Shown one piece after another: positions 481-17,797 of a stretch of 21,158 nucleotides of DNA (its first letter is position 1; each line of letters opens with the position of its first letter). The DNA is from a virus, in the IMG/VR virus record IMGVR_UViG_3300049893_003113, positions 1 through 21,158 of that record. One strand, 5' to 3'. Under the pieces are notes generated by a model. The model worked only from the letters and a program-made list of their open reading frames with translations. It ran no database searches and was not told the DNA's origin. The position numbers and the translations under genes were made by a program.

Positions 481-711
481 ATGGGCCAACATCAAAACAA
501 GCGAATCCGGAGAGAGCGCTACGAGCGCAATCTCGAACGCGAGGTCCAGGAACACCTGGATCCACCATCCGACGGCCAATTCTGTGTCTATGACAAGAAG
601 ACCAAGGAGCGTCACAAAGGTTTGAACTTCAAGCAGGCCCAGGCCCTCTGGAACTCCTTGGACAGTGCTATAATCCTTCAAGACGAGCACGTTCGTGGGA
701 AGGTTCTCTAA
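481..711 (+). CDS. Hypothetical small charged protein
   Basis: A 76-residue, strongly charged ORF with many Arg, Lys and Glu residues in the first 30 positions (for example RIRRERYERNLEREVQEH), suggesting a solvent-exposed helix. Residues 33-60 resemble a small beta-alpha unit with an FCVYDKKTKERHKGL stretch. No family is recognised. It starts two bases after the upstream stop without an obvious Shine-Dalgarno sequence, which suggests translational coupling. Its 3' end contains an extended -10 promoter-like element (666-674) and overlaps the next gene if that gene uses its GTG at 695. Confidence 0.6.
   Translation: MGQHQNKRIRRERYERNLEREVQEHLDPPSDGQFCVYDKKTKERHKGLNFKQAQALWNSLDSAIILQDEHVRGKVL
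666..674 (+). promoter_or_regulatory. Extended -10 promoter candidate TGCTATAAT
   Basis: Reads TGC TATAAT, a perfect -10 hexamer (669-674) with the TGn extension. The preceding G makes the GTGCTATA form shared with several other sites in this window. No TTGACA-like box lies 16-19 bases upstream. It sits inside the 3' end of a coding region and would drive the gene starting at 695 or 764 and the DUF3310 and LOG genes beyond. Confidence 0.55.
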
Positions 712-2542: not shown

Positions 2543-3394
2543 GTGGCCGAGACTTGCTTCAACCAGTCCGACTTTGACTACCGCAGGGAGGAAGGCGCAA
2601 ACCAGTCCTCCCTCAAGAAGATCCTAGAGAGCCCTGCCCACTACCAGGCGGCCCTCAAGTTCAAGATGATTCCGACTCCTGCCATGGAGATCGGCACCGC
2701 CCTGCATTGCCGCGTGCTTGACGGCGAGCAGGCGTTCCAGAATGCCTACGCAAAGAAGCCTGACGGGCTGTCCCTGGCCACCAAGGAAGGCAAGGAGTGG
2801 AAGGCCAACCTGGGCCGGAAGAAGGCGCTGTCAGCTGGCGGCAAGGACGATCCGTGGGGCAGCGTGGAAGGGATGACGGAATCCCTGCGCAAGCTTGCCT
2901 GGTTCTCGGGTGATGACGCCGAGTACGTCAAGCACAACGAGGTCTCGATCTACTGGGACTGGGAAGGGGTTCGCTGCAAGGCCCGCCTGGACCGCATACT
3001 CGTCGACGAGGGCATCGTCCTGGACCTCAAGACCACGGACTCCATTGAACCCGACGTGTTCGCCAAGAAGGTCGTGTCACTGGGGTACGACTTCCAGGCC
3101 GCCTACTACGCCAAGGCCGCTGAGGTCGCCTTCGGGAAGCCATTCAAGTTCATCTTCGCTGGCGTCGAACGAAAGCCCCCCTACGCGGTCGACATGTTCG
3201 AGGTGAGCGATGCGATGATGCAAGAGGGCATGGCGAAGTGCCTCGCCGCGGTCAGACTGCTCAAGACTTGTAACGAAACCGGCCAATGGCCCAGCCGTGA
3301 GCCTAGGATCATGAGGCTCGACTATCCCAGCTGGTACGTGCCCTACGGTCAGCCGGAAGCCCAGCCCCAAACCGAATCGGAGGATCTGTTCTGA
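2543..3394 (+). CDS. RecE/ExoVIII-like PD-(D/E)XK exonuclease
   Basis: A 283-residue protein starting at GTG 2543. It resembles the nuclease domain of RecE (exonuclease VIII): IGTALHCRVLD with conserved His55, then CKARLD (Asp150), VLDLKTTDS (Asp161 and Lys163, the D-x-K core) and YDFQAAYYAKA with the Gln of motif QxxxY (182-192). Such enzymes degrade one strand of duplex DNA 5' to 3' to give single strands for annealing. A short linker after residue 265 is acidic and Pro/Gln-rich. No RecT, Erf or Beta-like annealing protein is recognised in the window, so its partner must be elsewhere or unrecognised. The TGATG overlap at its end couples it to the next ORF. Confidence 0.85.
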   Translation: MAETCFNQSDFDYRREEGANQSSLKKILESPAHYQAALKFKMIPTPAMEIGTALHCRVLDGEQAFQNAYAKKPDGLSLATKEGKEWKANLGRKKALSAGGKDDPWGSVEGMTESLRKLAWFSGDDAEYVKHNEVSIYWDWEGVRCKARLDRILVDEGIVLDLKTTDSIEPDVFAKKVVSLGYDFQAAYYAKAAEVAFGKPFKFIFAGVERKPPYAVDMFEVSDAMMQEGMAKCLAAVRLLKTCNETGQWPSREPRIMRLDYPSWYVPYGQPEAQPQTESEDLF

Positions 3395-4274: not shown

Positions 4275-4561
4275 TGACTGACACACTCAAAATCGTTCAT
4301 GTGGTAGAGGAGACGTCGTCCCTGGGAGAGGTTTTCCCGGGGTACACCTTTGAAATGAAAACTGACGTCTCAGACGTTACTGTTCATGAATGGTTCAAGA
4401 TCTTTGAGAAGGTCCTGGCCGCCAGCGGGTTCAGTGATCGCGTCATCATGAAGGGTGCATGCGAGTTGGCCTTTAATAGCATGCGCGACAGGAAGGACAT
4501 GGTCTGGCTCCATGAGGAGTACGACCTGGGTGAGTTTGGCAAACTACCGGGCGAGGAGTGA
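4274..4561 (+). CDS. Hypothetical protein, 95 residues
   Basis: An ORF coupled to thyX by a TGATG overlap. The N-terminal half reads as beta strands (TLKIVHVVEE and GYTFEMKTD), followed by helices (VTVHEWFKIFEKVLAASGF, then MKGACELAFNSMRDRKDMVWL) and an acidic tail. It has no transmembrane segment or recognised motif. It lies directly before the terminase pair and is separated from it by only ten bases. No function is assigned. Confidence 0.7.
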   Translation: MTDTLKIVHVVEETSSLGEVFPGYTFEMKTDVSDVTVHEWFKIFEKVLAASGFSDRVIMKGACELAFNSMRDRKDMVWLHEEYDLGEFGKLPGEE

Positions 4562-4571
4562 CTCCCCAGTT

Positions 4572-5201
4572 GTGACAAGTGATCCCAGTTCTTGGCGTGA
4601 GGCCAAGCCCCCGTACAATCCCGGCCCGATCACCAATTTCAGGCGTGGGTACAAGGTCAACGAAGCAGGCCGGCACGAGACTGATCAGCAGTATCGAGCC
4701 TTTTGCTTCTACATGAACCTGGGGGCTGGCCGCTCCTACTCTGAAACGGCCAAGATCGCCGAGGTGACGGAGGACACCATCCAAGCCTGGGCCAACAAGT
4801 ACAACTGGCAGCGCCGGGCAGCTCATCACGACAAGCAGCAGATGGCCCTGGCCCTCAAGGATGCGAACAAGATGGAGCGCCGGAAGCACCGGAAGGCCAT
4901 CGAGCAGTTCCGTGCAGCCAACGAGGAACAGGCCCGTCTGATGATGGACGTGTCTTCTGATCTGATGAACATCATCCAGAAGCGCATCCAGAAAGCCGAG
5001 GACCGGGAGGAGGAGATCCCGATGGCTCTGGTGTCCGGCCTGATGCGCGCAGCTGCCAACATCTCAGACAGTGGCCGCCAGGCATGGGCAACCGCTCTTG
5101 GCGTCAACGAGCTGATGCAGGTTGTTGAGCAGGAGCTCGAAGAGGTGACGGTTGAAGACGTTACCGATGATGTCTACGAGATTCCCCTGGACGAAGACTG
5201 A
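4572..5201 (+). CDS. Probable terminase small subunit
   Basis: A 209-residue ORF read from GTG 4572. The same frame is open further upstream, but that part lies over the previous gene. Residues 42-85 look like a helix-turn-helix: RAFCFYMNLGAG, then SYSETAKIAEVTEDTIQAWANKY followed by NWQRR, the layout of DNA-recognising small terminase domains. A long charged helical part follows (KMERRKHRKAIEQF onward), suited to oligomerisation, and the tail is acidic. It stops in a TGATG overlap with the large terminase. The identification rests on position plus the HTH, since small terminases are poorly conserved. GAGGAG at 4553-4558 is rather far (13 bases) from the start, so the exact start is uncertain. 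Confidence 0.65.
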   Translation: MTSDPSSWREAKPPYNPGPITNFRRGYKVNEAGRHETDQQYRAFCFYMNLGAGRSYSETAKIAEVTEDTIQAWANKYNWQRRAAHHDKQQMALALKDANKMERRKHRKAIEQFRAANEEQARLMMDVSSDLMNIIQKRIQKAEDREEEIPMALVSGLMRAAANISDSGRQAWATALGVNELMQVVEQELEEVTVEDVTDDVYEIPLDED

Positions 5202-6728: not shown

Positions 6729-6800
6729 TCTATGACAGAGGCCGGGTCACTGCCCCAAAAGGGCACACCTGGTCCATCCGCTTAACACCCTCCATGCCTC
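6729..6800 (+). other. Non-coding stretch after the terminase
   Basis: Together with the tRNA-like sequence that follows, about 210 bases after the terminase stop (6725-6936) hold no convincing gene. Visible here are a small hairpin TGTC-TAT-GACA (6727-6737) and a second hairpin TGCCC-CAAAA-GGGCA (about 6751-6765), neither followed by a T tract. No clear terminator closes the terminase transcript, so readthrough into the sigma factor gene is possible. Confidence 0.5.
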
Positions 6801-6896
6801 TCCGTGGAAGCACAAACAGGAGGGTCGCTGTCGAGGTGACAGGAAGCTGCCGGCCGTCAAAGCCGGTTTGCGCGGGTTCGAATCCCGCCCTCGGCC
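6801..6896 (+). tRNA. Degenerate tRNA-Leu(GAG)-like sequence
   Basis: The 3' part is tRNA-like beyond reasonable chance. It has a perfect T arm GCGGG-TTCGAAT-CCCGC (6872-6888), then CCTCGGC (6889-6895), which matches the 3' acceptor strand typical of tRNA-Leu. Before it are a long variable-arm-like hairpin CCGGC-CGTCAAA-GCCGG (6850-6866) and a 5-bp stem CTGTC-GAGGT-GACAG (6828-6842). The last resembles a tRNA-Leu(GAG) anticodon arm missing two T residues. The 5' side is decayed: TCCGTGG at 6801-6807 pairs only five of seven with the acceptor strand, and no D stem is seen. No CCA is encoded. It may be a pseudo-tRNA, an attP-like tRNA fragment or an unusual functional RNA. Confidence 0.45.
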
Positions 6897-6903
6897 TTCG
6901 CAG

Positions 6904-6914
6904 CTGGTAGACTG
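6904..6914 (+). repeat. 11-bp direct repeat CTGGTAGACTG, copy 2, promoter-like
   Basis: Second copy of the repeat at 6718. As TGG TAGACT (6905-6913) it could serve as the -10 of the sigma factor gene. Transcription would then begin near 6920, leaving a leader of about 17 bases before GTG 6937. Confidence 0.4.
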
Positions 6915-6936: not shown

Positions 6937-7671
6937 GTGGCACGCAAGCCTGCTAAGTTCCAGCTCAGCAAGGAGCAGCAAAAGCTTGCGGCTGCAAACC
7001 TCAACCTAGCACGCCGTGAGGCATGGCGCATTCAGCGATCGACTGGTATCGAGTACCACACGCTTGAGTCTGTGGCCTTTGAGGGGTTGTGCAAAGCCGC
7101 CTATCGCTATGATGCTGAGAGGCCCCACCCCGTCACGGGCAAGGCAATGAAGTTCAGCAGCCTGGCGGTGCCCACCATCCGCGGTGAGCTGCTGCACTGG
7201 GTGCGCGACAGAACCTATTCGATGCGCCTCAGCCACAAGATGAGGGAGCACTGGGTGAAAGGTCGGAAGCTGCTGTACGCAGGCGCCACTGACATCGAGG
7301 TTGCTGCCCAACTCTGCATCGACCTGGAGGAGTGGCAAGAGGTCCGCAAGGTGTGCTCTGGGCCGCCGCTGGAGCTCAAGGACCAGGCTACTCCCACCGA
7401 GCCCCTGGAACCGAACGAGGTCGACTTCGCTGGCATCTACCTCCGGGCAGCCGAGAAGGCCCTCGCCGACGTCTCAGAGACTCGCCAGCGCCTGCTTGGA
7501 GAGGTGGAGGTCTACCTCAGTGGAGCTGGCTCGAGGATCCCCCGCCAGGCCATTGACGCACTTCTCCATAGCGCCGGCTGCGCGACCACCGATTGGAGCG
7601 AGGTCGACATCGACTTGCTGGAGGGCTGGGAGGACCTGGGTGGCGGCCGGTGCCAGGGCAGTCTGTTCTGA
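6937..7671 (+). CDS. Phage RNA polymerase sigma factor lacking region 4
   Basis: 244 residues from GTG 6937; ATG 6916 would add seven. Sigma-70 region 2 is visible at about 17-85: AAANLNLARREAWRIQ, FEGLCKAAYRYD, then FSSLAVPTIRGELLHWVRDR. A region 3-like segment follows (SMRLSHKMREHWVKGRKLL, then GATDIEVAAQLCID with EEWQEVRKV). After about residue 150 there is a Pro/Glu-rich linker and a C-terminal part with no recognisable region 4 helix-turn-helix, the domain that binds -35 boxes. Such a factor would recruit core polymerase to promoters defined mainly by an extended -10. Many such elements without a -35 occur in this window. No Shine-Dalgarno is seen, so the start is uncertain. Confidence 0.82.
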   Translation: MARKPAKFQLSKEQQKLAAANLNLARREAWRIQRSTGIEYHTLESVAFEGLCKAAYRYDAERPHPVTGKAMKFSSLAVPTIRGELLHWVRDRTYSMRLSHKMREHWVKGRKLLYAGATDIEVAAQLCIDLEEWQEVRKVCSGPPLELKDQATPTEPLEPNEVDFAGIYLRAAEKALADVSETRQRLLGEVEVYLSGAGSRIPRQAIDALLHSAGCATTDWSEVDIDLLEGWEDLGGGRCQGSLF

Positions 7672-7673
7672 TG

Positions 7674-7682
7674 TGATATACT
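7674..7682 (+). promoter_or_regulatory. Extended -10 promoter candidate TGATATACT before primase
   Basis: TGA TATACT, preceded by G, in the 17 bases between the sigma factor stop and the primase ATG. The -10 hexamer ends at 7682 and the ATG is at 7689, where transcription would normally begin. The transcript would be leaderless or nearly so. No -35 box is visible upstream. Confidence 0.55.
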
Positions 7683-7688
7683 GGGAGC

Positions 7689-9284
7689 ATGGCAGTCTCC
7701 CACACCACACTGCAGGCGATCAAGTCTGCACCACTCTCCGCCCTGATCGAGTCGACCGGGGCCCAGCTCAAGCGGGTCGGGCACGAGTTCCTGACCCAGT
7801 GCCTCTGGCACGAAGATGCAAACCCTTCCCTGACGGTCAGCGATGACAAAGGCTTTTGCTATTGCCACGTTTGTCGCGGCGGCGGCGATGCTATCGACTA
7901 TGTCGGCAAGCGTTTTGGCCTGTCGTGGCGAGAGGCTGCTGAACGCGCAGCAGACATCCTCCAGGTGCGTTTCGAGGTTGACGATGAAAACCCAGAGGAG
8001 ACTGCTCGACGCCGTGAGGCTCGCAGGTCAGCCGTAGCCGCCCTGGAGGCTGAGCAGGCAAAGTTCAAGGCCAACATCCGCGACCCCAAGGCCGGCCGCA
8101 TCCGTCAGATCCTGCTGGACCGCGGGATCCAACGCGAGGCAGCCAAGGAGTTCGGGATCGGTTTCTCCTCGTCGGGCTTCTTCGCTGGCCGGATCACCCT
8201 GCCGATCCACAACCACCGCGGCGAACTGGTTGGGTTCACTGGGCGAGCCACAAAGCCTGATCAGGACGCCAAGTACAAGAACAGCTCCGACAGCGACCTG
8301 TTCCAGAAGAAGCAGCTGGTCTTCAACGAGGTGCGAGCCAAGGAGGCCGCCCGGGAAGCCGGATCGATCGTGTTCGTTGAAGGGCACCTCGATGTGGTCT
8401 CAATGTGGCAGGCCGGCATCCGGAATGTGGTCGCATTGCAGGGCACCGGTGCGCCCGATCCGTCAGTGCTCCAGCGCCTGACCCGAACGGTCAAGAACAT
8501 CATCCTGTGCTTCGACGGGGACGCTGGCGGCAAGAAGGCAGCAGAGCAGTTCATCGCAGCTGCTGGCCCGATGGCGATGGCCGGCGAGGTGTCGATCAAC
8601 GTTGTGACCCTGCCGGACGGCCAGGATCCGGACGAAGTGATCCGCACCGGGGGCAACCTCTACAACTTCCTCGCATCGGCCCCCTCCTGGCTTGACTGGG
8701 TTATCGACGTCTGGGCTGCCGCCCTGGACAAGGACGACACTGCGATGGTCACCGAGGTCGAGAGGAAACTCCGGGCCCTGATCGATGGACTCCGCTCGAA
8801 GGCCCTTCGTGCCCACTACATCGACAAGGCTGCCCGGGTCCTGGCGAAGAGCGAGAAGGAGGCTACCAGCATCGCGAAGGAGTGGGGCAACACTGAGTTT
8901 CGCCATTCCGAGTCGACCTGGAAGCTTCGGGAGTTCCCGGAAGCACGCCTGGCCGCGGAGAAGAGGCTGCTTCGCCTGTACACCCACAGGCCGGCGCTCC
9001 GCCCCTCGCTCAAGCCGCTCCTGGGACTCGTGCAGAACCCTGCCCTCAGATGGCTCTCAAACCGCCTGGAGGAGCTCGACGCATGTTCTTCCGTGGATCT
9101 GACTCCACACACCGCCATGGCCGTTGTAGCGGTGGCTGAGCCCCATTACATGCAGCAGCTCCGGACCCTGGTGCGTCCAAATGTGATCATCGATGACAGT
9201 ACTGGCGTCCTGCAGCATCTGTCTGCTATACTGGAGGCTGAGGTAACCCTACCTACCGAATCTGATGAACTTGACCCCGATTAG
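7689..9284 (+). CDS. DnaG-type DNA primase
   Basis: A 531-residue primase. The N-terminal CHC2 zinc finger is complete: Cys38, His41, Cys59 and Cys62 (CLWH ... CHVC), followed by GGDAIDYV. The TOPRIM catalytic core carries FVEGHLDVV with Glu231 and LCFDGDAGGKKA with Asp276 and Asp278. The linker LDRGIQREAAKEFGIGFS and the segment GRITLPIHNHRGELVGFTGR are typical of DnaG. The helical C-terminus (from about 330) would be the helicase-binding part, but no helicase is fused or seen here. It makes RNA primers at the replication fork. It starts immediately after an extended -10 element and ends with a 20-base overlap with the next gene. GGGAG at 7683-7687 is too close to the ATG to be a normal ribosome binding site. 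Confidence 0.95.
   Translation: MAVSHTTLQAIKSAPLSALIESTGAQLKRVGHEFLTQCLWHEDANPSLTVSDDKGFCYCHVCRGGGDAIDYVGKRFGLSWREAAERAADILQVRFEVDDENPEETARRREARRSAVAALEAEQAKFKANIRDPKAGRIRQILLDRGIQREAAKEFGIGFSSSGFFAGRITLPIHNHRGELVGFTGRATKPDQDAKYKNSSDSDLFQKKQLVFNEVRAKEAAREAGSIVFVEGHLDVVSMWQAGIRNVVALQGTGAPDPSVLQRLTRTVKNIILCFDGDAGGKKAAEQFIAAAGPMAMAGEVSINVVTLPDGQDPDEVIRTGGNLYNFLASAPSWLDWVIDVWAAALDKDDTAMVTEVERKLRALIDGLRSKALRAHYIDKAARVLAKSEKEATSIAKEWGNTEFRHSESTWKLREFPEARLAAEKRLLRLYTHRPALRPSLKPLLGLVQNPALRWLSNRLEELDACSSVDLTPHTAMAVVAVAEPHYMQQLRTLVRPNVIIDDSTGVLQHLSAILEAEVTLPTESDELDPD
9224..9232 (+). promoter_or_regulatory. Extended -10 promoter candidate TGCTATACT before the metallophosphoesterase
   Basis: TGC TATACT inside the 3' end of the primase gene, 32 bases before the ATG at 9265. 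The 11 bases TGCTATACTGG are identical to those at 10784. No -35 box is visible. Confidence 0.55.
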
Positions 9285-10762: not shown

Positions 10763-10784
10763 GCCCAGGCACCCCCTGGGCTTT
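10763..10784 (+). terminator. Intrinsic terminator after glutaredoxin
   Basis: Stem GCCCAGG (10763-10769) pairs with CCTGGGC (10775-10781) across a CACCC loop, followed by TTT. The short T tract makes it a modest terminator. The T tract runs directly into the extended -10 element TGCTATACT, giving a compact stop-and-restart cassette. Confidence 0.6.
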
Positions 10785-10792
10785 GCTATACT
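10784..10792 (+). promoter_or_regulatory. Extended -10 promoter candidate TGCTATACT before endolysin
   Basis: TGC TATACT abuts the terminator at 10763-10784 and lies 44 bases before the endolysin ATG. The position of a -35 box is occupied by the terminator stem, so no -35 contact can be expected. Confidence 0.6.
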
Positions 10793-10836: not shown

Positions 10837-11469
10837 ATGAAACTCAACATCAGCCTGATCCCACTGGCATTCCTCTTGACTGCCAACGCGATCATCCCAA
10901 TGCCACCAGCTCCACCCAGAGTTGCCGTGGTGATCCAACCCGATCCCGTCGCGACAGTCCTGGCAAAAGGAGAGGGCGACTGGGACTCCGTCAACAGGGG
11001 CCGGGCCGGCGACACTCCCGGCGGCATCAAGGCCATAGCAGGTAAGACCTTCTCTGAGCTCACAGTGTCAGAGGTCCAGCGGCTACAGAGAGGGAAGATC
11101 TTTGCCGTCGGCCGGTATCAGTTCATCCCCTCGACGCTCTCGTACGCCATCGAGAAGGCCGGGATCGACTCAAGCGAGCTGTTCACGCCAGAGGTCCAGG
11201 ATCGACTCCTGAAGGCCCTCCTGTTCTTCAAGCGCCCGGCGATCGGCGCCTACATCACCGGTGAGAGCGACGACATTGCGAAGGCCCTTGACGAGATGGC
11301 CCTAGAGTGGGCATCCGTCGCCTGGAGACATGGTCGCAGCTACTACGCCAGCACCGGCGGCAACAGGGCAAGTATTACAAGGTATGAAGCCTCCCTGGCA
11401 CTCCGGCAGGCAAGGGTGCTACACTTGGAGAGTCAAACGGAGGAATCCAACGATGAACCCAGTCCGTGA
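10837..11469 (+). CDS. Endolysin (muramidase-type) with N-terminal signal or anchor
   Basis: 210 residues from ATG 10837, with a Shine-Dalgarno-like AGGAG a few bases upstream. Residues 1-19 (MKLNISLIPLAFLLTANAI) form a short hydrophobic N-terminus, either a cleavable signal or a signal-arrest-release anchor. A Pro-rich linker follows. The catalytic part has GEGDWDSVNRG with a probable catalytic Glu46, TVSEVQRLQ and the AVGRYQFIPSTL motif (90-101) typical of phage lysozyme-like glycosidases and transglycosylases. It would cleave the glycan strands of peptidoglycan. The last 17 bases overlap the next ORF, and a promoter-like TGCTACACT lies in its 3' end. Confidence 0.87.
   Translation: MKLNISLIPLAFLLTANAIIPMPPAPPRVAVVIQPDPVATVLAKGEGDWDSVNRGRAGDTPGGIKAIAGKTFSELTVSEVQRLQRGKIFAVGRYQFIPSTLSYAIEKAGIDSSELFTPEVQDRLLKALLFFKRPAIGAYITGESDDIAKALDEMALEWASVAWRHGRSYYASTGGNRASITRYEASLALRQARVLHLESQTEESNDEPSP
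11417..11425 (+). promoter_or_regulatory. Extended -10 promoter candidate TGCTACACT
   Basis: TGC TACACT preceded by G, in the 3' end of the endolysin gene and 27 bases before the ATG at 11453. It would drive the block of very small genes behind the endolysin. It is weaker than the TATACT sites because of the C at the third hexamer base, and no -35 box is visible. Confidence 0.4.
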
Positions 11470-13133: not shown

Positions 13134-13142
13134 TGCTAGATT
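13134..13142 (+). promoter_or_regulatory. Extended -10 promoter candidate TGCTAGATT before RNR
   Basis: TGC TAGATT preceded by G, immediately behind the terminator at 13108-13132 and 44 bases before the RNR ATG at 13187. The -35 position is inside the terminator stem, so this must work without a -35 box. It has the same arrangement as the sites at 10784 and 17789. Confidence 0.5.
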
Positions 13143-13186
13143 CGTCTTGCCGAAAGGCATCCTACCTTCGCGTCTCAAGATCCAAT

Positions 13187-15490
13187 ATGTCCGATTTCCG
13201 TCCTTCAGCCCCAAGCGCAGAGACGGTGTTCCTTCGCACGTACAGCCGCCGGAAGGCCGATGGCAATCGTGAAAGCTTCGAGGAAGCCATGCTCCGGACG
13301 GTGGACGACATTGCGGCCATTGGCAAGTTCACCCCCGAGGAGTACCGGCTGGTACGTGAGCAAGCCCTGGCCCAACATTCGTTCCCGTCCGGCCGCGCCT
13401 TCTGGGTGGCTGGCACTGAGTGGGGGAAGCGCCCTGAGAACTTCTCCGGCTACTACAACTGCACCAGCACTCACATCTCCGACCTGGAGGCGTTCGGCCT
13501 GCTGGTTGACCTGGCAATGCAGGGCTCGGGTACCGGCGCTGTGCTCGAGTCTGGCGTTGTTGACCAGCTCCCGGCCGTCCGCACCGAGATCAACATCGAG
13601 CGGATCCTGCCGATTGGTGATGAGCCAGGCAACGCCGACACCCAGATGCTCTACGACGAGCGGGGCGCCATCATCATCGTGGGTGACAGCCGCAAAGGTT
13701 GGGTCGACGCCTACATGGCACTGATCCGCATTGCCTTCTACTCCCTCCGCAGCAAGATCAACGTCACGATCGACCTCAGCCAGATTCGCCCTGCCGGGGA
13801 GAAGCTTAAGGGCTTCGGCGGCACGTCCAACCCGATCAAGCTGGGGGACATGTTCACCAAGGTCGCAGCCCTGCTGAACGGCGCCGCGGGGCGCAAGCTG
13901 ACCACCGTCGAGGCGTGCCTGCTGATCGACGAAGCCGCCACCTGCATCGTGGCCGGCAACATCCGACGCAGCGCCGGCATGCGCCAGTTCTCCCAGGATG
14001 ACCAGGAAGCGGCAACCGCCAAGCTTGGCCTATACACCCAGGATGAAGCCGGCAACTGGCGCGTGGATCCCAAGAAGGAGGCCCTGCGCATGGCCAACCA
14101 CACTCGGTGCTACCACACCAAGCCCTCGTACCAGGAGATCGAGGACGCCGTGCGTCTGCAGTTCCAGAGCGGTGAAGGTGCCATCCAGTACGTGCCCGAG
14201 GCGGTCGCTCGAGCCAACGCGGACCTACTGAACACCCCGGAGCGGAAGGCGGAGTTCCTGCGCCTCTACACCGAGTCGGACACCGGCCGCGGCAACGCCT
14301 CCCAGCTATTACTCAGCCTGGCCGAGGAGAAGGGGATCTTCCTTGGCGCCCGTGAGCTCCAGCACCGCATGGACCGCTATGGCCTCAATCCCTGCGGTGA
14401 GATCATCGGTCGCGACTTCCACTGCAACCTGGCCGAGGTGCATCTCAACACCATCGATCCCAGCGATTACAAAGCCCTGTTCGATGCGTTCTACGCCGCC
14501 GGCCTCCAGGTTGCAGCCCTGCTGCAGCACGAGTTCGTGCATGAGCGGTACCAGTACAGCCGTGACATCGATCCCATTGTTGGGGTGAGCTTCACCGGCC
14601 TGTTCGACTTCTTCGTCCACGCCTTCGGGTCAGACTGGCTCGAGTGGATGATGCAGGGACGCCCGGACACCCTGAAGGGCGCCTACTTCGAGGGCGCCGA
14701 GGCTGAGTACCTGCTGCGGTTCCGGGAAGCGGCCCACGAGGGCGTGGTCAAGTACTGTGCCACGCATGGACTGCGGACTCCCAACCGGATCACAACCGTG
14801 CAGCCCGCCGGCACCAAGAGCCTGCTCACAGGCGCCTCCAGCGGCTGGCACCCGCCCAAGGCCCAGCGCTTCATCCGTCGCATCACACTGGGCGTCAAGG
14901 ACCCCCTGGTGCCCGCTCTGCTCGAGTCTGGCTTCAATGTCATCCCCGCCCAGAGCGCACGCGACGAGCACGGCAACCTGTTGGACGACATCACCGACCC
15001 TCGGGTGCAGGAAGTGCTGGTCGAGATCCCGACGGCCGTTTCCTGGGCCGATCTGCCTGGTTGCGACCAGTACGACCTGAGCAAGCTGCCGGCCGCCGCC
15101 CAGTGGGGCCTGTACATGCAGGTGCAGGTGTACTACACGGATCACAACACTTCCGCAACCATCGAGCTGCGTGAGGAGGAGATCCCGGTGCTGGCCAAGC
15201 TGATCTACGACAACATCCAAGAGGATGGTGGCTACATCTCGGCCGCCCTGCTGGCCCGTTTCGATGCCAACGAGACGTTCCCCCGCCTGCCCTTCGAGCC
15301 GATCTCGAAGAAGCAGTACGACCTGCAGATCCTGCCACGCAAGATCGTCGCCGAGACCGACGACCGCTCACTGCTTGAGATTCTGAACAAGTACGACAGC
15401 AGTGAGTGGACATTGGACTCCATCGACGGATGTACCAATGCTGCCTGCATTGCCAAGGCGGAGAAGGAAGAGCGGGAGGGCAAAGCCTGA
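13187..15490 (+). CDS. Class II ribonucleotide reductase, B12-dependent, monomeric
   Basis: 767 residues from ATG 13187. An upstream in-frame GTG at 13133 would lie inside the promoter and terminator area and is rejected. Motifs of the monomeric adenosylcobalamin-dependent reductase are present: the first active-site cysteine in YYNCTST (Cys92), NPCGE (401-405, with the thiyl-radical Cys and the Glu), the partner cysteine in FHCNL (Cys413), and a C-terminal CTNAAC pair (749 and 754) that shuttles electrons to a reductant. It turns ribonucleotides into deoxyribonucleotides and needs cobalamin from the host. Glutaredoxin at 10536 is a plausible reductant. The gene starts a new transcript and is coupled to the next ORF by TGATG. 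Confidence 0.95.
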   Translation: MSDFRPSAPSAETVFLRTYSRRKADGNRESFEEAMLRTVDDIAAIGKFTPEEYRLVREQALAQHSFPSGRAFWVAGTEWGKRPENFSGYYNCTSTHISDLEAFGLLVDLAMQGSGTGAVLESGVVDQLPAVRTEINIERILPIGDEPGNADTQMLYDERGAIIIVGDSRKGWVDAYMALIRIAFYSLRSKINVTIDLSQIRPAGEKLKGFGGTSNPIKLGDMFTKVAALLNGAAGRKLTTVEACLLIDEAATCIVAGNIRRSAGMRQFSQDDQEAATAKLGLYTQDEAGNWRVDPKKEALRMANHTRCYHTKPSYQEIEDAVRLQFQSGEGAIQYVPEAVARANADLLNTPERKAEFLRLYTESDTGRGNASQLLLSLAEEKGIFLGARELQHRMDRYGLNPCGEIIGRDFHCNLAEVHLNTIDPSDYKALFDAFYAAGLQVAALLQHEFVHERYQYSRDIDPIVGVSFTGLFDFFVHAFGSDWLEWMMQGRPDTLKGAYFEGAEAEYLLRFREAAHEGVVKYCATHGLRTPNRITTVQPAGTKSLLTGASSGWHPPKAQRFIRRITLGVKDPLVPALLESGFNVIPAQSARDEHGNLLDDITDPRVQEVLVEIPTAVSWADLPGCDQYDLSKLPAAAQWGLYMQVQVYYTDHNTSATIELREEEIPVLAKLIYDNIQEDGGYISAALLARFDANETFPRLPFEPISKKQYDLQILPRKIVAETDDRSLLEILNKYDSSEWTLDSIDGCTNAACIAKAEKEEREGKA

Positions 15491-16169: not shown

Positions 16170-16189
16170 CGGAAACCTACTTAATGAAC

Positions 16190-17788: not shown

Positions 17789-17797
17789 TGCTATGAT
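17789..17797 (+). promoter_or_regulatory. Extended -10 promoter candidate TGCTATGAT
   Basis: TGC TATGAT preceded by G, right behind the portal terminator and 27 bases before ATG 17824. There is no -35 box. The 35 bases from the -10 to the ATG closely resemble those at 20304-20338. Confidence 0.65.

Follow-up and report, generated by a model that had tools for sequence, protein, structure and literature searches.

The sigma factor encoded in a 21,158-base stretch of cyanophage DNA (the window) is probably a clamp-assisted late sigma factor that resembles gp55 of phage T4, was built independently from a SigF-type factor, and reads a class of promoters with a GG core. Its identity as a sigma factor, an unrecognizable region 4, a conserved C-terminal peptide, and promoter classes that segregate by gene were found computationally in the window and its relatives. 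In this analysis, "late" is judged from gene content.

The sigma factor gene, its relatives, and its neighbors

The window represents part of the genome of a Synechococcus siphovirus of the S-CBS2/S-CRES type. Its gene order matches the S-CBS2/S-CRES genomes, and its TerL is 88% identical to that of S-CBS2, 87% to that of S-CRES3, and 82% to those of S-CRES1/2. The sigma factor gene has the following parts:

6937..7671, + strand: sigma factor gene with a GTG start, encoding 244 aa; regions 2 and 3 are SigF-type (group 3), and region 4 is not recognizable
6988..7212, + strand: region 2 (core RNAP binding, -10 recognition), residues 18-92 by Pfam Sigma70_r2; SigF/FliA-like
7234..7356, + strand: region 3 helices, residues 100-140; AF2 helices 100-114, 119-126, and 130-140
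7426..7575, + strand: three-helix segment replacing region 4, residues 164-213 (AF2)
7576..7653, + strand: acidic variable linker, residues 214-239; pLDDT about 50 in the full AF2 model
7654..7668, + strand: C-terminal QGSLF, putative beta sliding-clamp-binding motif (Q-x-x-L/V-F-COOH), from ortholog conservation

A sequence-only reading had described this gene as a sigma factor with regions 2 and 3, and profile searches bore this out. The protein matched PHROG 36098 ("RNA polymerase sigma factor") with an E of 4e-102, and 36098 and 351 were its only PHROG matches at E 0.001 or better, while its match to Pfam Sigma70_r2 was weak (E 0.0032, below the cut-off). The closest models were SigF/SigBFG/FliA, and cyanobacterial SigF NF005644 was the best NCBIfam model, covering residues 14-139 only with 71 bits against a cut-off of 261. 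The family profile matched solved sigma factors (SigB, FliA, SigF, and SigA) mostly inside residues 6-143, and the matches to SigA, SigF, and FliA extended to about residue 140. Measured against group 3 SigF/SigB/FliA factors, the protein has their type of regions 2 and 3, and their region 4 helix-turn-helix was not recognized in it. The residues with which group 1/2 sigma70 factors read promoters are absent. Compared with E. coli sigmas, the protein has L, P, T, G, and L where sigma70 has Y430, W433, W434, Q437, and T440, respectively, with K and a gap in place of H455/E458, which read the extended -10.

Orthologs of the gene include S-CBS2 gp077, annotated as "rpoS" (79% identity), and the "SigF" genes of the S-CRES phages (71-80%). 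P-SS2 ORF003 is a distant homolog (46% identity), and both S-CBS2 gp077 and P-SS2 ORF003 adjoin terL. The 2009 P-SS2 paper names ORF003 a group 3 sigma factor, credits P-SS2 with two phage sigmas, one of group 3 and one of group 2, and guesses that the group 3 factor serves a particular regulon; the passages considered describe neither region 4 loss, a C-terminal clamp motif, nor a cognate promoter (PMC2784084). In S-CBS2 gp077 (L009:13374-13565), a frameshift cuts the annotated protein to 206 aa and places QGSLF out of frame, which is either a sequencing error or a real truncation. A related group of loci (L060-L071) carries a short sigma of 209-214 aa that has no clamp-like tail, and keeps GG sites before the portal gene.

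Between terL and the sigma gene lies a tRNA gene with a short D-arm (6830-6896, + strand) that scored 32.9 bits with Rfam RF00005 (gathering score, 29) and has an unusual anticodon loop, CGTCAAA. ARAGORN reported no tRNA anywhere in the window, and the 22-base T-arm/acceptor string of this tRNA was absent from the other fetched loci. Directly upstream, positions 6788-6825 (+ strand) gave a near-threshold match to abiF RNA (RF03085, 36.2 bits vs. 37; E 3e-5 for the stretch searched), which may reflect a terminator, a hairpin that arose by chance, or mimicry of an RNA linked to defence.

Two promoter classes and their likely readers

When word enrichment was run on whole genomes, low-complexity words and terminators made up most of the result, and motif discovery was therefore limited to intergenic gaps; TTATATATATA repeats were also noticed, in a few AT-rich noncoding gaps. 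The sequence-only reading had proposed motif discovery for a family of extended -10 (TG) sites. When this was run in complete relatives, a second, different class, GG(A/C/T)AN(A/C)CTA, was also found. EM motif discovery in 67 late-region gaps of three isolate genomes yielded GGnAnMCTA in 82% of the gaps (LLR 255 vs. 49 in shuffled sequence), and in 68 other gaps it yielded TGGTATACT (LLR 106 vs. 44 shuffled).

The pattern GG[ACT]AN[AC]CTA + 15-27 nt + [AG]TG was counted on each strand and set against the mean of Markov shuffles over both strands. These shuffles ignore coding constraint, but neither the strand asymmetry nor the segregation by ortholog rests on the shuffles. Against them, S-CBS2 had 23/1 sites (mean 3.0), S-CRES3 20/2 (2.8), S-CRES1 21/1 (3.5), and two IMG/VR contigs 3/23 and 18/0 (2.4 each). 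Two contigs with the short sigma had 10/0 and 9/3, P-SS2 showed a slight excess (6/1), and the control set for both classes, three Synechococcus siphoviruses that lack a window-type sigma, had 0/0, 0/0, and 2/0. The sites were strongly strand-biased, and their spacing to the start codon peaked at 19-24 nt. No -35 signal and no conserved column were found upstream of them. In the -10 register, the class keeps A-11 and T-7 and does not keep T-12. Its GG, lying in the -10 element, is reminiscent of group 3 promoters. Three GG sites occur in the window:

4538..4546, + strand: GG core GGCAAACTA; the probable start of terS, a GTG at 4572, follows after 25 nt
13156..13164, + strand: GG core GGCATCCTA, 22 nt before the ribonucleotide reductase (RNR) ATG at 13187
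16171..16179, + strand: GG core GGAAACCTA, upstream of portal (16254)

The sequence-only reading had listed eight sites (666, 7674, 9224, 10784, 11417, 13134, 17789, and 18562) as sharing a TG motif that lacks a -35 box. All eight strings exist, and the motif TG[CA]TATAMT is fitted by those at 666, 7674, 9224, and 10784 only; the strings at 11417 (TGCTACACT), 13134 (TGCTAGATT), 17789 (TGCTATGAT), and 18562 (TGATATATT) do not fit it. The four strict sites, all on the + strand, compare with a mean of 0.05 in dinucleotide shuffles, and the lack of a -35 box was upheld, as TTGACA was no commoner near TG sites than at random positions. The class, also written TGNTATACTGG, is strict at T-12. Its main members in the window are:

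666..674, + strand: TG core TGCTATAAT, before ORF 695; strict match; TGNTANNNT in 4/31 relatives, none with the following G
6905..6913, + strand: TG core TGGTAGACT(GG), string TGGTAGACTGG, 23 nt before the sigma gene; 36/53 relatives
7674..7682, + strand: TG core TGATATACT(GGGA), before primase, gap 6 nt; TG motif in 25/48 relatives
9224..9232, + strand: TG core TGCTATACT, inside the gene for primase, with an exonuclease gene (9265) beginning 32 nt downstream; 16/30 relatives
10784..10792, + strand: TG core TGCTATACT, before a lysozyme-like gene (ATG 10837); strict match; kept in 1/13
13134..13142, + strand: weak TG core TGCTAGATT, 22 nt upstream of the RNR GG core; poorly conserved
17789..17797, + strand: TG core TGCTATGAT, 26 nt before ORF 17824; TGNTANNNT in 11/18, with the following G in 5/18

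The best-conserved position, 6905, was absent from the earlier list, and the listed sites at 666, 10784, 11417, 13134, and 18562 were poorly or not conserved in relatives. The predicted +1 of the 7674 core falls on the primase ATG, so that the predicted transcript is leaderless; a core-to-ATG spacing of 5-6 nt at primase is common to about a dozen relatives. Upstream of RNR (13134-13164, + strand), TG and GG cores stand in tandem, as they do in S-CBS2 (63293/63315). A TGGTAG at the end of terL (6719) was not counted as a promoter, since the Trp and stop codons of terL account for it, whereas the copy at 6905 is intergenic.

The two classes mark different genes. With motif positions in relatives resting on predicted starts, the GG motif was found before portal in 33/33 orthologs, terS in 25/37, and RNR in 19/34, and was absent before sigma (0/53), primase (0/48), and exonuclease (0/30). 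Besides the genes listed above, the TG motif was present upstream of exonuclease VIII in 18/44 relatives, and upstream of portal and terS in 1/33 and 2/37, respectively. The random rates for these GG and TG counts were 2.2% and 3.8%.

A second, RpoD-like sigma (gp061 type) is encoded left of the window in S-CBS2, S-CRES1, and S-CRES3. Most relatives in the full-length group keep its Q437 and W434, usually together with Y430, and the S-CBS2 protein has a near-threshold region 1.2. In the short-sigma group, the second sigma has S or C at the Q437 position in most cases, and no enrichment of the TG motif was seen. The gene for the second sigma is itself preceded by TTGAC and a CATACT-like -10 element in 14/35 relatives (vs. 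0.24% at random), and this class stands before almost no other tested gene. The TTGAC-to-CATACT promoters (L009:3700-3810) often overlap a GC-rich hairpin with a T run, so that terminator and promoter look superimposed.

Both sigmas co-occur in the phage group, and co-occurrence alone therefore cannot assign the motifs. Because the window sigma lacks T-12 and extended -10 readers, its reading of the TG class is disfavored, and we infer that the second sigma or host SigA is the better candidate to read this class. That the TG sites are simply ordinary host SigA extended -10 promoters is quite possible, if on the less probable side. A sequence of TGnTATAnT and a GGGA-like discriminator would suit a sigma of group 1, and cyanobacterial promoters often lack a -35 element. 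However, TGNTAKAMTG was absent from three other Synechococcus siphoviruses, and the separate TTGAC plus CATACT-like class looks more host-like. The pairing first proposed, in which the region-4-less window sigma directs the TG sites, perhaps with a coactivator, was not supported and appears improbable: the TG sites are enriched and lack a -35, one of them precedes the sigma gene (possibly for autoregulation), and the controls without a window-type sigma have no TG sites, but the window sigma is devoid of the sigma70 T-12, -11, and extended -10 readers although the sites adhere strictly to T-12, it is replication and regulatory genes that carry the TG class while structural genes carry the GG motif, and the same phages possess a second sigma with Q437 and W434.

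The GG class is the likelier target of the window sigma. Its lack of T-12 matches a sigma without T-12 readers, and the missing -35 signal fits the absence of region 4. Promoter assignments for S-CBS2/S-CRES-type cyanophages were not found in the literature searched.

The C-terminal half of the sigma factor

In the alignment of 38 distinct full-length sigmas, the last five residues were Q in 38/38, a variable pair, L in 37/38 (V in one), and F in 38/38. All synonymous codons of the terminal peptide are in use (2 for Q, 2 for F, and 6 for L). By per-position conservation, the linker before QxxLF is far less conserved than the peptide, and L057 and L058 have a shortened linker and keep QG(S/R)LF. 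Bacterial clamp ligands carry QL(S/D)LF-like pentapeptides (PMC9690074), from whose consensus QGSLF differs at position 2, where G replaces L. This conservation pattern suggests that QGSLF is a beta-clamp-binding hook and that a sliding clamp is the candidate partner. No bacterial-type beta clamp (PF02768) was found in 10 phage records, and DNA polymerases of families A, B, and C were absent from these cyanophages; the partner would therefore be the host DnaN. Searches of open-access papers turned up no account of a phage sigma that binds a bacterial beta clamp.

It is rather unlikely that the sigma reads GG late promoters while QxxLF binds some other partner, such as SSB, a coactivator encoded by the phage, or an element of RNAP. 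In favor of this, position 2 is occupied by G instead of L, and the terminal strands in the AF2 models are short and of low confidence. Furthermore, the terminal peptide is absent from P-SS2 and from the short relatives (209-214 aa), which manage without it. As this short group keeps its portal GG sites, the clamp cannot be essential for reading the GG motif. On the other hand, a Q and an F that never vary and enclose L or V, a free C-terminus, and a variable linker form the consensus layout of clamp ligands (PMC9690074), and the peptide layout also matches that of T4 gp55.

Two other proteins of the window have similar ends. RusA (2170-2541, + strand) terminates in QEPLF, with QETLF and QEELPF in relatives, and a Cas4/RecB-like exonuclease (2543-3394, + strand) terminates in SEDLF, with mostly (E/D)D(L/I/V)F in relatives. 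These are possible further clamp- or SSB-binding tails.

Within the limits of the tools, no functional region 4 is recognizable in the window sigma, as the sequence-only reading had held, although a remnant is possible. Pfam scans of 46 orthologs found region 2 in all of them and a marginal region 4 in one (E 0.16). The C-terminal profile matched no sigma in the PDB; profile matches in the PDB to bleomycin hydrolase and EF-hand proteins were judged to be chance. The full AF2 model showed the helices of regions 2 and 3, a low-confidence linker, helices at 164-178, 181-194, and 203-213, and a low-confidence end, and a separate AF2 model of the C-terminal part showed three helices and a low-confidence tail. 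Foldseek with this C-terminal model alone gave no sigma-4 match (best E 3.2). The whole model aligned to full sigmas over 200-250 columns, so that the three helices may be a remnant of region 4; a flap-binding domain is another possibility. A scan of genome contigs for chromosomal relatives with an intact region 4 returned one locus, on a contig binned to a proteobacterial MAG, which ends in QSSLF.

A functional, highly diverged region 4 in these helices is very doubtful: the whole-model alignment, the single marginal ortholog, and a helix order like region 4.1 plus one helix speak for it, but the segment alone has no sigma-4 match, it is followed by an acidic low-confidence stretch rather than a basic recognition helix, and the GG sites have no -35 signal.

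Proposed late transcription and known systems

The favored reading supposes that a SigF-type (group 3) sigma lost region 4 and gained a short stretch of helices, a flexible linker of acidic character, and the terminal QGSLF. Region 2 would guide host core RNA polymerase to -35-less GG(A/C/T)AN(A/C)CTA late promoters, whose cores stand about 19-24 nt before many structural genes, and QGSLF would bind the host DnaN sliding clamp. The host replisome would load this clamp on replicating phage DNA, and QGSLF would tether it, so that the clamp may supply the promoter affinity that otherwise comes from region 4 and late transcription would be coupled to replication. In the predicted cascade, host SigA would first read TTGAC-CATACT before the gene of the second, RpoD-like sigma. 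The second sigma (or SigA) would then read TGNTANNNTG sites before the window sigma gene, primase, and exonucleases, and the window sigma would finally read the GG sites, with late timing presumed from the genes that carry them.

The broader proposition, that replication-coupled late transcription evolved independently outside the T4 lineage with the host beta clamp as activator at GGnAnnCTA promoters, seems evenly poised. If true, clamp activation would have arisen convergently from another sigma lineage, which would make replication-coupled late genes a general solution, and host DnaN would act as a transcription factor. The GG class would also provide marine cyanophages of an abundant group, of which the isolates S-CBS2, S-CRES1, S-CRES2, and S-CRES3 exist, with a promoter code open to testing.

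Cyanobacterial SigF and the SigB-SigF-SigG family resemble the window sigma in the sequence of regions 2 and 3 and in SigF/FliA-like region 2.4 residues. It differs from cyanobacterial group 3 factors in the unrecognizable region 4, in the added clamp-like C-terminus, and in scores far below the family cut-offs; it differs from P-SS2 ORF003 in the QxxLF tail, which ORF003 lacks.

In T4, a sliding clamp is an established activator of transcription, and the same is inferred for phages related to T4. T4 gp55, a sigma-like protein that lacks region 4, contacts the T4 clamp by means of a motif at its C-terminus, carried on a variable linker (PMC7892883, PMC2988020). The sequence-only reading had compared the window sigma with gp55 and hinted at partners; this comparison was supported, with QGSLF pointing to a sliding clamp as the candidate partner. 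The likeness to T4 late transcription (gp55, gp33, and gp45) extends to a sigma with region 2 and apparently without region 4, to -35-less late promoters, and to a C-terminal clamp-binding-like peptide on a variable linker, a pattern present in 38/38 full-length orthologs; the role of T4 gp33 might fall to the three-helix segment of the window sigma. The systems differ in that the cyanophage promoter core, GGnAnnCTA, is unlike the TATA-type core of T4, and that the window sigma has no gp55 match at the PHROG threshold used and has SigF/FliA as its relatives. In addition, the cyanophage QxxLF is of the bacterial type, and in the 10 records that lack PF02768 the host clamp is its presumed target. 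The arrangement of a region-4-less sigma, a clamp hook, and late promoters is so far known only from T4 and its relatives.
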